Shown here: positions 46,542 to 52,334 of the stretch, piece by piece
How positions within the stretch are numbered: the first letter of the stretch is position 1
Layout of the letters: each line of letters opens with the position of its first letter
Source of the DNA: Alkalicaulis satelles
Lineage (GTDB): Bacteria; Pseudomonadota; Alphaproteobacteria; Caulobacterales; Maricaulaceae
Length of the DNA: 64,000 bases
Reading direction: 5' to 3'
NCBI RefSeq assembly: GCF_008630495.1
Contig: NZ_VWOJ01000001.1
Coordinates: forward strand, 496,001 to 560,000
Notes under the pieces: generated by a model
The model's input: the letters and a program-made list of their open reading frames with translations, nothing else
Databases searched by the model: none
Told to the model about the DNA's origin: nothing
Made by a program: the position numbers and the translations under genes

Positions 46542-49500
46542 TCACGCCAGCTCCACCCCGGCCACGCCATCGAGACCCTTGAGCGCGGCGCGCGCAGCCG
46601 GATCAAGGGCGTGCTCGCCCGGCAGGCGCAGCTCGGCCCGGCGCCCGTCGGCCAGCGCCATCACCAGATGCACCTGCCCGCGCGGGCCGGGCCGGGCGGC
46701 GGCGTGCGCCAGCCGCGCAGCCACCCCCTCCAGCGGACCAGGGCCGTCGAGATGGATGCGCAGGCTGCGGCCCTCGGCCTCCAGGGCGGCGGTGTTGATG
46801 GTTTCGGCGCTCTCCATGATCAGGCGCAGCCCCTCTTCCTGTTCCTCGATCTTCATCACCGCCATCACCGCCGATCCCGGCTCCAGCCGGTCGCGCACGG
46901 CGAACAGGATTTTGGGCGGGACCAGCGCCTCGAACTCGCCGGACGGATCGGACAGGGTGAGGAAGGCGAATTTCTCGCCCGAGCGGCGCGAGACCTTTTC
47001 CTGGCGCGCACGCACGATGGCGGCCATGCGCGCGGCGCGCGCGCCCTCGGCGGCCCGGGCGGGCAGATCGGCGAACAGCACCACGCCGCGCCGGGCCAGC
47101 CCGTCGCGCAGATCATCAAGGGGGTGGCCGGACAGATAGAATCCCACCGCCGACAATTCCTCGTCCAGACGGCGCACCGGGTCCCAGAACTCCCCCTCGG
47201 GCAGGCGCGGGCGTTGCAGTCCCGGCCCGCCGCCGCCCCCGCCGAACAGGGAGACCTGCGCGCTTTCGCGCTCGGACAGGGCGTGCTGGGAGAAGGCCAG
47301 CAGGGTCTCGGCGGCGGCCAGGGCGCGCGCCCGGTCCGGCTCAAGCGCGTCGAACGCCCCGGCCCGGGCGAGATTTTCAAATGCGCGCTTGTTGACCTGA
47401 CGCGGATCGACGCGCCCGGCGAAATCGAACAGATCGCGGAACGGCCCGCCCTCGCCGCGCACCCGCGCGACATGCTCCATGGCCGAAAAGCCCACATTGC
47501 GCACCGCGCCCAGGCCATAGCGCACCGCGCCGTCCTCCACCGAAAAATCGGCCTGGGACGCGTTCACATCAGGCGGCAGAACGGTGATGCCCATGCGCCG
47601 GGCTTCCTGGAAGAACACGGCGAGCTTGTCGGTATTGGCCCGGTCCAGGCTCATCAGCGCGGCCATGAAGGCCACGGGATGATTGGCCTTCAGCCAGGCG
47701 GTCTGGTAGGCGATGGCGGCGTAGGCGGCGGCGTGGGACTTGTTGAAGCCGTAGCCGGCGAACTCATTGACCAGGTCGAAGATGAAATTGGCGCGCGCGC
47801 GCGGCACGCCGCGCTGTTCGGCGCCGTCCAGAAAGCGCACGCGCTGCTGGTCCATCTCCTCTTTCTTCTTCTTGCCCATGGCCCGGCGCAACAGATCGGC
47901 CTCGCCCAGCGAATAGCCCGACAGGATCTGGGCGATCTGCATCACCTGTTCCTGGTAGATGATGACGCCGTAGGTCTCTTTCAGGACCGGTTCGAGATCG
48001 GGGTGGAGATAGTCCGGCTCGGCGCGCCCGGACTTGCGCTCCACATAGGTGTCGATGTTCTTCATCGGCCCGGGCCGGTAGAGCGAGATCAGCGCGATCA
48101 CGTCCTCGATGGTGTCGGGCTTGACCTTGCGCAGGGTGTCGCGCATCCCCGTGCTTTCCAGCTGGAACACCCCGATGGACGCGCCCGAGGCCAGAAGCTC
48201 ATAGCTGGCCGGGTCGTCAAAGGTCAGCGCATCAAGGTCCGGGCGCTCGGCGCCGGATGATTGAATATAGTCCAGCGCGCGCTGGATGACGGTCAGGGTT
48301 TTCAGGCCCAGGAAGTCGAACTTCACCAGTCCCGCAGGCTCGACCCATTTCATGTTGAACTGGGTGGCGGGCAGATCGGCGCGCGGGTCCTGATAGAGCG
48401 GTACCAGCTCGGTGAGCGGGCGGTCGCCGATCACCACGCCGGCGGCGTGGGTGGAGGCGTTGCGGTTGAGCCCCTCAAGCTGCAGCGCCACCTCGATCAG
48501 CCGCGCCACCATGGGGTCGCTGTCGCGCAAGTCCTGCAGCCGGCTTTCGCTTTCCAGCGCCTGGGCCAAAGTCACCGGCGCGGCCGGATTGGCGGGCACC
48601 AGCTTGGCGATGCGGTCCACCAGCCCGAAGGGCAGCTGCAGCACCCGGCCCACATCGCGCACCACGGCGCGCGCCTGCAGGGTGCCAAACGTGATGATCT
48701 GGGCCACCCGGTCCGCGCCGTAGCGCTGCTGGACATAGCGGATCACCTCCCCGCGCCGGTCCTGGCAGAAATCGATATCGAAGTCGGGCATGGACACCCG
48801 CTCGGGATTCAGAAACCGCTCGAACAGCAGGCCGAAGCGCAAGGGATCAAGATCGGTGATGGTGAGCGCCCAGGCCACCACCGAGCCCGCGCCTGAGCCC
48901 CGGCCCGGCCCGACGGGAATATTCTGGGCCTTGGACCACTGGATGAAGTCCGACACGATCAGGAAATAGCCCGGAAAGCCCATGGTCTCGATGACCGAGA
49001 GCTCGAAGTCGAGCCGGGATTCATACGTCTCGCGCGGCGCGGCCAGCTCGATGCGCGCCAGCCGCGCGTCGAGCCCCTCTCGCGCACGCGCGCGCAATTC
49101 CTCAGCCTCATCGCGCCCGCCCTCGGTGGGAAAGCGCGGCAGGATGGGCGCGGCGGTGTGCACGCGCACCGCGCAGCGCCGGGCGATCTCCAGCGTGGCG
49201 TCGAGGGCTTCGGGCAGGTCGGCGAAACGCGCCGCCATCTCCTCGCCGGACTTGAAATAATGCTCCGGCGTGACGGTGCGCCGGTCCGACTGGCTGACAT
49301 AGCTGCCCTGGGCGATGCACAGGAGCGCATCATGGGCGCCATGCTGGTCAGGCCGGGCGAAAAACGGCTCATTGGTGGCCACAAGCGGCAGGCCGCGCGC
49401 ATAGGCGCGGTCGATGAGATAGTCTTCAGCGGTCAGGTCATCGGGACGGCCATGGCGCTGGAGCTCGAGATAGAGCCGGTCGCCGAAGGCTGCGCCGAGC

Positions 49501-49985
49501 TGGTCCAGCAGCGCATCGGCCGGTCCCGTGCGCCCTGCGCAGACCAGCCGGTTGATCAATCCGTCATGCCCGCCGGTCAGGCAGATGAGGCCGTCCGCGC
49601 GCGCCAGCACCGCCTCCAGGCTCACATGGGCGGGCTCGGCCGGGTCGATATCAAGCCATGCCGCGGAGGACAGCGCCATCAGATTGGCGTATCCGGCCTG
49701 GTTCTGGGCCAGCAGCACCAGCGTGCCGTCCGGCCCGCCGCGCTCGCCGGCCCGCGCGTTTTCAAGCTCCACCGACAGGGTGCAGCCAATGATGGGCTGC
49801 ACGCCCGCCCCGGCCAGATATTCGGAATATTCCAGCGCGCCGAACAGATTATTGGTGTCGGTCAGCGCTGCGGCGGGCATGTCATGGGTGCGGCACAGCT
49901 CGGCGATCTCGCCGATGCGCAGCGCACCCTCCAGCAGCGAATAGGGCGAGCGCACACGCAGATGGACAAAGGGGCGCTGGCTCAT
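46542..49985 (-). CDS. dnaE: DNA polymerase III alpha subunit
   Basis: 1147-residue replicative polymerase of the DnaE1 class. PHP domain at the N-terminus ([35 protein letters not shown]), catalytic aspartates in [20 protein letters not shown] and [20 protein letters not shown], thumb/fingers with [18 protein letters not shown] and [20 protein letters not shown], then HhH and an OB-fold (about 985-1070), and a short beta-binding tail. Length normal. A 30-codon membrane-peptide gene with SOS-like boxes is 87 bases upstream on the same strand and may share transcripts. Confidence 0.97.
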
Positions 49986-50072
49986 GGGGCGAGCTCCGCG
50001 AGAGGGGCGGGAATCGGGACGGCCCCTACCCTAGACGAGGCCGGGCGGGCCGGTCACCCGCGTGTGGCCGCT

Positions 50073-50165
50073 TCAGGCGGCCATGGCGGCTGAAACCGTC
50101 AGGGCCAGAGTGACGAAACCGGCGATGACGGCGGCCGAGGCGATATCTTCGATGAGGCTGCGCAT
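50073..50165 (-). CDS. Putative SOS-controlled membrane micropeptide (SidA-like candidate)
   Basis: A 30-residue frame: Met-Arg-Ser-Leu-Ile-Glu-Asp-Ile-Ala then one continuous hydrophobic helix (ASAAVIAGFVTLALTVSAAM, residues 9-28), ending Ala-Ala. GGGAG lies seven bases before the ATG. Upstream is a sigma70-like promoter containing two LexA-like boxes, and beyond that the terminator of the lol operon, so the gene has its own transcription unit ahead of dnaE. Length, single helix and control resemble SidA of Caulobacter crescentus, a 29-residue SOS-induced division inhibitor. Sequence homology to SidA was not verified. Too short to be certain it is translated. Confidence 0.5.
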   Translation of the reverse strand: MRSLIEDIASAAVIAGFVTLALTVSAAMAA

Positions 50166-50203
50166 GGCGGAACTCCCTAGGTCTGACGCCGCCCGACGCG
50201 GCT

Positions 50204-50253
50204 ATTCCTGTTTTGTTCCCCACACCCTATTCGCCTTTTGTTCCGCCCGTCAA
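50204..50253 (-). promoter_or_regulatory. Promoter with two LexA-like boxes (ATTC-N7-GTTC)
   Basis: Plus-strand ATTCCTGTTTTGTTC (50204-50218) and ATTCGCCTTTTGTTC (50229-50243) each match the alphaproteobacterial LexA box GTTC-N7-GTTC except for the first base. On the minus strand TTGACG (50253-50248) and TAGGGT (50229-50224) form a -35/-10 pair with an 18-bp spacer. One box fills the spacer, the other covers the probable start region, an arrangement suited to repression. Confidence 0.55.
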
Positions 50254-50256
50254 GCG

Positions 50257-50286
50257 AAAAACGAATCACCTGCCAGGCAGGTGATT
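50257..50286 (-). terminator. Rho-independent terminator after lolD
   Basis: Arms AATCACCTGCC (50264-50274) and GGCAGGTGATT (50276-50286) are exact inverse complements; on the minus strand the stem is followed by CG and T5 (bases 50261-50257). It ends the proS-lolE-lolD transcripts before the micropeptide promoter. Confidence 0.75.
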
Positions 50287-50317
50287 TCCGCGACAATGAA
50301 CACTGGGTCGCCGGCGC

Positions 50318-51002
<685 letters not shown>

Positions 51003-51010
<8 letters not shown>

Positions 51011-52334
51011 TGCGCAGCGCCTCCACCGGATCGATGCGGCCCGCACGCCAGCTGGGCAGAAGCGTGGCCAGCAGCGCCATGGCGAAGCCCCAGGCGGACA
51101 CGAACACCACCTCCGCCCAGTCCACCCGCGCGGGCAGGCGGTAGAGCTTGTAGACGGTGGGATCGAAGATATTGACGCCCGTCGTCAGCGCGATGGCGTC
51201 CTGGATCGGGCCGATAAAGGCCACGAATAACAGCCCCAGCACGATGCCGCAGGCGGTGCCGAACGAGCCGATGGCCGCGCCCGAGATCAGGAAGATGCGC
51301 ATCACCGCCCCGCGCGTGGCGCCCATGGTGCGCAATACGGCGATGTCGCGGGTCTTGTTCTTCACCAGCATGACCACGCCCGAAATGATGTTCAGCGCAG
51401 CGATGGCCACGATGATGGACAGGATCAGGCGCATGGCGATGCGCTCCACCTGCAGGGCGTTCCAGAAGGCGGCGTTCTCCGCGCGCCAGTCGAACACCAC
51501 CGTGCCCGGCGGCGCCATGGCGTTGATCCGGTTCATCACCGTCTCGGGCGCGTCGGGATGGGTCAGGCGCACATCGATATAATCGCCCGCCGAGGAGCGG
51601 TTGAAGAACAGGGCGGCCTGCTCGATGGGCATATAGACCAGGATCGCGTCGAGATCCTGCACCCCCACGGTCAGCACCCCGCCCACCAGATAGGTCTTGG
51701 AGCGCGGCGCCACGCCCAGCGCCGTCTGGGCGCCGCGCGGGGTGACCAGCGTCACCTCGTCGCCTGCCGTCACGCCCAGGCGCGCGGCCATGGCCGTGCC
51801 GATGACGATGATGTCGCCGCCATGGCGGCCCTCGCCGAAGCCTTCCGCCGAGCCGTAAATAATGCCCCCGCCCGCCTCGCGCACGCCGCCCTCGCCGGTG
51901 ACGATGTCGAAATTGACGAAGTCCGAGGCGCGCACGCCATTGACCTGCGCAAACGCCGCCTGGCCGCGCGCAGACGTGACCAGCGCCTGGCCCAGCGTCA
52001 CCGGACCGGCCTGGCGCACGCCCGGCAGGGCGGCGATGGCGTCGGCCAGATCGCTGGTCTGGGCGTTCATGTCATGAGGCAGCTGCACATAGACATGGGG
52101 CTGCGCGCCCAGAAGCCGGGTCAGCAGCTCGTGGCGGAAGCCGTTCATGATCGACATCACCGCGATCAGCGCCGTCACCGCCAGCATGATGCCGACAAAG
52201 GAGATCACGGCCACCAGGGTGACGCCGGCCTGCTGGCGCCGGGCGCGCAAGTAACGCAAGGCCAGCATGAACTCAAAGCCGCTGAACGGCCCGGCGCCGC
52301 CAGCCACGGCTTGCTTGGGCGGCGAAGCGCTCAT
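51003..52334 (-). CDS. lolE: Lipoprotein-releasing system permease (LolC/LolE family)
   Basis: 443 residues, four transmembrane helices: one near the N-terminus after [18 protein letters not shown] ([20 protein letters not shown], with [20 protein letters not shown]), a large periplasmic MacB-like domain (about 60-280), then three C-terminal helices ([60 protein letters not shown]) ending in [14 protein letters not shown]. Alphaproteobacteria usually carry one such subunit that works as a homodimer, so LolC versus LolE cannot be told apart. Overlaps proS by four bases and lolD by eight. Confidence 0.92.

Follow-up and report, generated by a model that had tools for sequence, protein, structure and literature searches.

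A putative LexA-controlled, SidA-like membrane peptide gene upstream of dnaE in Alkalicaulis satelles

In Caulobacter the SOS-induced inner-membrane protein SidA, which has only 29 residues, interacts with FtsW and stops cell division, and mutations in ftsW and ftsI suppress it, as described in PMC4211646. According to PMC12700426, Caulobacter cells without lexA form filaments owing to sidA, a gene listed as CCNA_02004 in PMC10769358, and a single LexA box is present in about 97% of the SOS promoters of this organism. YneA, SosA, ChiZ, SulA and DidA are also damage-induced division inhibitors, but they are other proteins of other sizes. YneA is reported to act on FtsW as well (PMC13396833) and DidA is described as SOS-independent (PMC4211646). 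A literature search returned no report of SidA outside Caulobacter, which is weak evidence of absence as most subscription papers were outside its scope.

We studied a 30-codon open reading frame (ORF) in a stretch of 64,000 nucleotides of the A. satelles genome, which we refer to as the window. The likeness to Caulobacter SidA consists of a length of 29-30 residues, one transmembrane (TM) helix, LexA-type boxes and a position directly upstream of dnaE, together with an acidic residue before the helix and, in most of the peptides, GF at positions 16-17. The difference is that SidA shows no significant one-to-one sequence match to the window peptide. Based on the sequence comparisons and on the analogy to Caulobacter we think it very likely that the ORF is a real SidA-like gene, repressed by LexA and released upon DNA damage, whose product would block septation via FtsW/FtsI/FtsN; the function is carried over from Caulobacter.

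The peptide gene and its promoter

The ORF is located between a lolD-like gene and dnaE on the minus strand (50073..50165) and its product is MRSLIEDIASAAVIAGFVTLALTVSAAMAA followed by the stop codon. Both the ORF listing and the translation agree with the preliminary description of a 30-codon frame encoding one hydrophobic helix. The peptide has 30 residues with a hydropathy maximum of 2.26 over 17 residues, and the ORF listing together with its conservation characterises it as a SidA-like peptide with a single TM helix. The Shine-Dalgarno-like GGGAG, said to lie seven bases before the ATG, is indeed present there (50173..50177, minus strand). The gene for DNA polymerase III alpha, dnaE (46542..49985, minus strand; Pfam), begins 87 bp downstream of the ORF. 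On the upstream side there is a lolD-like ABC ATPase gene (50318..51010, minus strand), for which an internal ATG was taken as the start and whose frame is open to 51046, and then a lolC/E-like FtsX-type permease gene (51003..52334, minus strand; Pfam). Searches of the window peptide against Pfam, of the window and Caulobacter peptides with PADLOC and of the Caulobacter peptide against PDB sequences gave no match.

Within its own genome the ORF was the sole match to the profile of the window's family (E ≤ 10). Comparing it to the nearest relative we counted 11 synonymous differences and one nonsynonymous difference, and the pooled pN/pS was 0.38 (15 non-independent pairs from six loci of the genus). 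Judged by these codon changes the ORF is under purifying selection.

Going down the minus strand we encountered a hairpin, TTGACG, box 1, a weak -10, box 2, GGGAG, the ATG and the 30 codons. The hairpin (50264..50286, minus strand) was found after lolD by a terminator scan and resembles an intrinsic terminator with a T-rich tail. A terminator isolating the ORF from the lol operon had been described before; the hairpin itself was recovered, but it is not a conserved feature, with only 5 of 55 loci of the window's family showing a counterpart in a simple scan from -350 to -60. The claim of a separate -35/-10 pair was likewise upheld in part. The -35 hexamer TTGACG (50248..50253, minus strand) matches the consensus at five of six positions, but its partner at about 50224-50230 is weak, as the candidates TAGGGT and ATAGGG are both poor, and a strict sigma-70 scan of 49000-51500 returned no promoter.

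Two LexA-like ATTC-N7-GTTC sites had been reported and both are present, 25 bp apart and each with one mismatch to GTTC-N7-GTTC. Box 1 (ATTCGCCTTTTGTTC at 50229-50243, minus strand; GAACAAAAGGCGAAT on the gene strand) lies inside the promoter spacer as described. Box 2 (ATTCCTGTTTTGTTC at 50204-50218, minus strand; GAACAAAACAGGAAT on the gene strand) does not cover the start region as had been proposed, but is located 39-53 bp before the ATG, close to where transcription presumably starts. For GTTC-N7-GTTC sites with up to one mismatch the window shows no enrichment (23 observed versus 27.2 expected), and since they occur at chance frequency a single box proves nothing alone. The evidence for these putative LexA boxes is rather the pair, the longer core shared by its members and the conservation.

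The shared core TTC-N4-TTTGTTC has only five occurrences across the genome of 2.89 Mb, compared to one for the reversed-pattern control. Two of the five sites belong to the ORF promoter, one precedes lexA, one precedes uvrA and one is unexplained. The lexA site stops 18 bp short of the lexA ATG; an exact GTTC-N7-GTTC after TTGACG is found there too. At uvrA the core forms part of an exact site, which precedes the gene by about 60 bp. Further exact GTTC-N7-GTTC sites were detected about 80 bp before the likely ATG of recA, in the opposite orientation, and about 30 bp upstream of ssb. The core common to the lexA and uvrA promoters and the conservation of the boxes in relatives support, at the sequence level, the LexA control that had been suggested for the ORF. 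RecA, LexA and an FtsW/RodA-type protein are all encoded in the genome; the FtsW-like protein scored 325.7 bits, just under the cut-off of 337.5. As separate observations, the exact sites at C1:889910 and 890824 are those upstream of ssb and uvrA, and the fifth core site (C1:209176) adjoins an ORF without an NCBIfam match at E ≤ 1e-10 and is possibly a further SOS gene or a chance occurrence.

The boxes could also control dnaE itself, in which case the ORF would be a chance frame. The terminator scan found none in the 87 bp between ORF and dnaE, as this explanation would have it, but the frame, its length and its helix are kept in 55 of the 56 loci sampled from the window's family and the codons are under selection. 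We therefore regard a chance frame as extremely improbable and prefer a SidA-like gene with boxes of its own.

Conservation of boxes and peptide upstream of dnaE

The upstream DNA of the relatives was located with the first 200 DnaE residues as anchor. For a locus to count as a match for the SidA-like arrangement, the 600 bp upstream of dnaE had to contain a box on the dnaE strand, exact or with one mismatch, and within the next 100 bp an ORF starting with ATG that has 24-50 codons and encodes a strongly hydrophobic segment of 17 residues. This rule was set after the pattern was already visible in the loci. For the window's family we used 56 loci from 59 genomes; two genomes were without a DnaE match and the weak match in G017 was dropped. 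The Caulobacteraceae, a name which we derived from the matches to the SidA model and from like peptides at named Caulobacter and Brevundimonas loci, were represented by 20 loci and by 8 more picked from the 61 genomes of genus g28. The Hyphomonadaceae were named from a stretch of G198 that is found letter for letter inside the Ponticaulis koreensis DSM 19734 locus and contributed 20 loci and 14 more picked from 105. Two further families, f4 and f5, were sampled with 20 loci each. The class sample comprised 60 genomes (58 families) that were chosen by hand near the top of a list with 143 matches among 152.

A box with a TM peptide was found upstream of dnaE in 55/56 loci of the window's family, in all 28 Caulobacteraceae loci, in 11/20 loci of f4 and 19/20 of f5 (30/40 together) and in 13 of the 60 other Alphaproteobacteria. 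The rule missed L058 in the window's family, nine f4 loci (genera g30, g31, g32 and g37) and L123 in f5, where the peptide is present but the box is absent. One of the class matches, L289, is probably due to chance: its box is not A-rich and its profile p was 0.83. For the Hyphomonadaceae the rule gave 0/34 loci. The median gap before dnaE is 66 bp in this family (34 loci) compared to 298 bp in the window's family (49 loci), which leaves little room for a peptide gene. Overall the rule matched 126/218 loci, compared to 2/218 on the reverse strand and 19/4360 for Markov shuffles. The controls with altered patterns gave 20/218 (N6 spacer), 19/218 (N8 spacer) and 15/218 (CAAG core). In our view these rates are not near zero since most of the loci do encode the peptide and A-rich DNA fits the patterns loosely.

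In the part of the family to which the window belongs, 14 loci have retained both boxes, each with one mismatch, at a distance of 25 bp, so that the comparison of the double box across relatives, which had been proposed as a check, spoke for the pair. TTGACG or TTGACA precedes box 1 in all 14 of these loci, four of which have it displaced by one or two bases. In a broader search for TTGA followed by C, A or T in the 22 bp preceding the first box, we detected the motif in 25/55 loci of the window's family, 13/28 Caulobacteraceae, 2/11 f4, 1/19 f5 and 11/13 class loci. The other 41 loci of the window's family contain at least one perfect box each, compared to the two one-mismatch boxes of the window's clade, which looks like a trade between the number and the strength of putative LexA sites. 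The spacing differs as well: 26/28 Caulobacteraceae loci have their boxes 17-18 bp apart, whereas the window has two ATTC boxes at 25 bp. Among the loci compared, the DnaE of the window gave 77% with that of an Oceanicaulis MAG and 69% with that of Maricaulis.

Relation to SidA

The NCBIfam model NF033228 ('cell division inhibitor SidA') is an equivalog with a curated cut-off of 35 bits. A Caulobacter-genus peptide encoded upstream of dnaE behind LexA-type boxes (L158) scored 72.3 bits, a second peptide of this genus 59.7 bits and a peptide of the Brevundimonas-like genus g21 only 20.5 bits. The cut-off was exceeded in 11/100 genomes of the order. All 11 belong to the Caulobacteraceae (11/20) and each match is immediately upstream of dnaE, from which it follows that sidA precedes dnaE in Caulobacter, in agreement with the preliminary description, which placed sidA near dnaE. 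Weaker matches were seen at this position in most of the other Caulobacteraceae genomes. Of 14 named control genomes, seven including Caulobacter vibrioides had a match at all and one exceeded the cut-off. A second, sub-threshold match to the model (28.5 bits) was encountered away from dnaE in a genome of genus g28 (G072:C3:315102-315185).

NF033228 matched neither the window peptide nor, at E ≤ 1, any of 53 peptides of the window's family. The comparison of family profiles gave a different picture. The hidden Markov model of the window's family scored 24/25 Caulobacteraceae, 4/6 f4, 6/19 f5 and 10/13 class peptides above composition-matched shuffles (p ≤ 0.05). With hhalign the profiles of the window's family and of the Caulobacteraceae aligned at 95.3% and 0/200 column permutations were as good; the pairings of the window's family with f4 and f5 behaved likewise. 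Against a mixed set the value was 97.2%. This set held 51 of 63 distinct peptides from outside the window's family, three of them with an artificial first Met, and was assembled without the class peptides L289, L290 and L310, two of which are poor scorers, so that it leans towards a match. Full peptide sets were used for the profile-against-peptide tests and for the hhalign tests of family pairs.

The reciprocal tests were weak, with the Caulobacteraceae, f4 and f5 profiles recovering only 10, 13 and 7 of the 53 peptides of the window's family, respectively. The profile pairs of Caulobacteraceae with f5 and with f4 do not exceed permutations (p 0.17 and 0.07) and the f5 profile found 0/25 Caulobacteraceae peptides. 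By these profile comparisons f5 is the weakest link among the families. For the window peptide itself we obtained 0.5 bits with the Caulobacteraceae profile (shuffle p 0.45), and its scores with the f4 and f5 profiles were also at shuffle level (p 0.30 and 0.94). It is without the GF-x-W-M and the late W that are common in many relatives. Homology to Caulobacter SidA is thus supported by the family profiles and not by the single window sequence, and the alignment with SidA that had been called for gave a mixed outcome.

Three broad traits of SidA are nevertheless found in the window: the ORF is directly upstream of dnaE on the same strand, encodes about 29 residues with one TM helix and follows two putative LexA boxes with one mismatch each. 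The product could alternatively be a toxic, membrane-active peptide under SOS control rather than a divisome inhibitor, and a short single-helix SOS peptide of this kind, DinQ, is described in PMC3567139. Such a toxin is very unlikely here in view of the positional and profile link to SidA. The locus and the family profiles support the SidA-like identity given in the preliminary description, although the window peptide alone is not recognisable as SidA, and the best reading is that of a divergent positional homologue of SidA outside the NF033228 equivalog.

Loci beyond the order and possible function

Applying the same rule to named loci we found the arrangement in 12/80. Five matches are within the order (Caulobacter, a Caulobacterales MAG, Brevundimonas, Oceanicaulis and Maricaulis) and six are outside (Tepidicaulis marinus, two Rhodobiaceae MAGs, an unclassified MAG, Agrobacterium sp. 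a22-2 and Ahrensia marina). The peptides of the latter six exceed shuffles with the profile of the window's family (p 0.002-0.026) as well as with a combined profile of the order (p 0.002). The match L199 was rejected as a probable chance occurrence, being above shuffles with neither profile, and the rule did not match L234, a named locus from the Caulobacteraceae.

With the Agrobacterium peptide as query we retrieved five large records that are classed as plasmids, four from Sinorhizobium (E 0.1) and one from Shinella (E 0.003). In Sinorhizobium meliloti CP090106.1 the gene order is lol permease, ABC ATPase, an unannotated 28-codon ORF and dnaE; the record is titled pSymB (3.7 Mb) yet carries dnaE. 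The ORF was matched by tblastn at 1486770-1486853 with an E of only 0.1 (L326 2501-2587), has GAACGGAAATAGAAC and GAACAAAAAGGGAAC upstream and encodes MADFVRDLAAFASMSLFIVSISVIALGL. This peptide of 28 residues resembles the others by its position between lolD and dnaE, the GAAC-N7-GAAC boxes, the single helix and the F-V-R-D before the helix. Its p was 0.002 with the combined profile of the order, 0.012 with the Caulobacteraceae profile and 0.13 with the profile of the window's family. The boxes form three overlapping GAAC pairs in 11 bp steps, two of them exact and one with a mismatch. A Ribo-seq study lists sORF25 in the 5'-UTR of S. meliloti dnaE1 and some sORFs of this kind are suggested there to be upstream ORFs (uORFs; PMC10117765). 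The 28-codon ORF is probably this published sORF25.

The suggestion made for the S. meliloti 5'-UTR sORFs, among them sORF25 (PMC10117765), raises the question whether the window ORF is a translated leader that tunes dnaE expression and yields a peptide without a target. The short distance of 87 bp to dnaE and the missing terminator would suit such a leader, and terminator-like sites between peptide and dnaE are scarce in general (8/125 loci, with about 4 expected from shuffles). However, the peptide sequence itself is constrained (pN/pS 0.38), the distance to dnaE ranges from 4 to 337 bp across the loci of the order and the counterpart in Caulobacter is known to inhibit division, so that we consider a pure leader unlikely. 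A leader role and a peptide role could coexist. The scarcity of terminators suggests that co-transcription of the peptide gene with dnaE is possible.

For the preferred SidA-like gene we propose the following sequence of events. The gene would be kept off by LexA bound to the two ATTC-N7-GTTC boxes, which lie within the promoter and directly behind it. DNA damage would lead to the RecA-driven cleavage of LexA and hence release the gene. By analogy to Caulobacter the 30-residue peptide would then insert in the inner membrane and hold the FtsW/FtsI/FtsN complex inactive, leaving the septum unclosed until the repair is done. As no terminator was found between the ORF and dnaE, transcription induced by damage may extend into dnaE as well.

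Taking all loci together we find it reasonably probable, with less confidence than for the window ORF, that SidA is an ancient and fast-evolving SOS division inhibitor of the Alphaproteobacteria, encoded in the interval from lolD to dnaE, possibly on one transcript with dnaE, and covered by the existing model in only part of the Caulobacteraceae. It would also occur in groups such as the Rhizobiaceae (S. meliloti, probably as sORF25) and be absent from the Hyphomonadaceae locus. This predicts an effector of the damage checkpoint in many Alphaproteobacteria that is missed by the current SidA model, and illustrates how synteny, combined with a regulator site, allows a 30-residue peptide to be followed much further than sequence searches would. 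With one gene and one known target the prediction allows a direct and cheap test in Caulobacter and S. meliloti. A further question is why a division inhibitor has remained ahead of the gene for the replicative polymerase.

A different arrangement was observed in genus g25 of the Hyphomonadaceae. Here 4 of 10 loci (L125, L129, L134 and L140) contain a GTTC-N3-TTTTGTTC-type box and no peptide was found with it. The box has the opposite orientation and is located where the frame preceding dnaE ends, at its stop codon or directly behind it; in those loci dnaE itself may be controlled by LexA.
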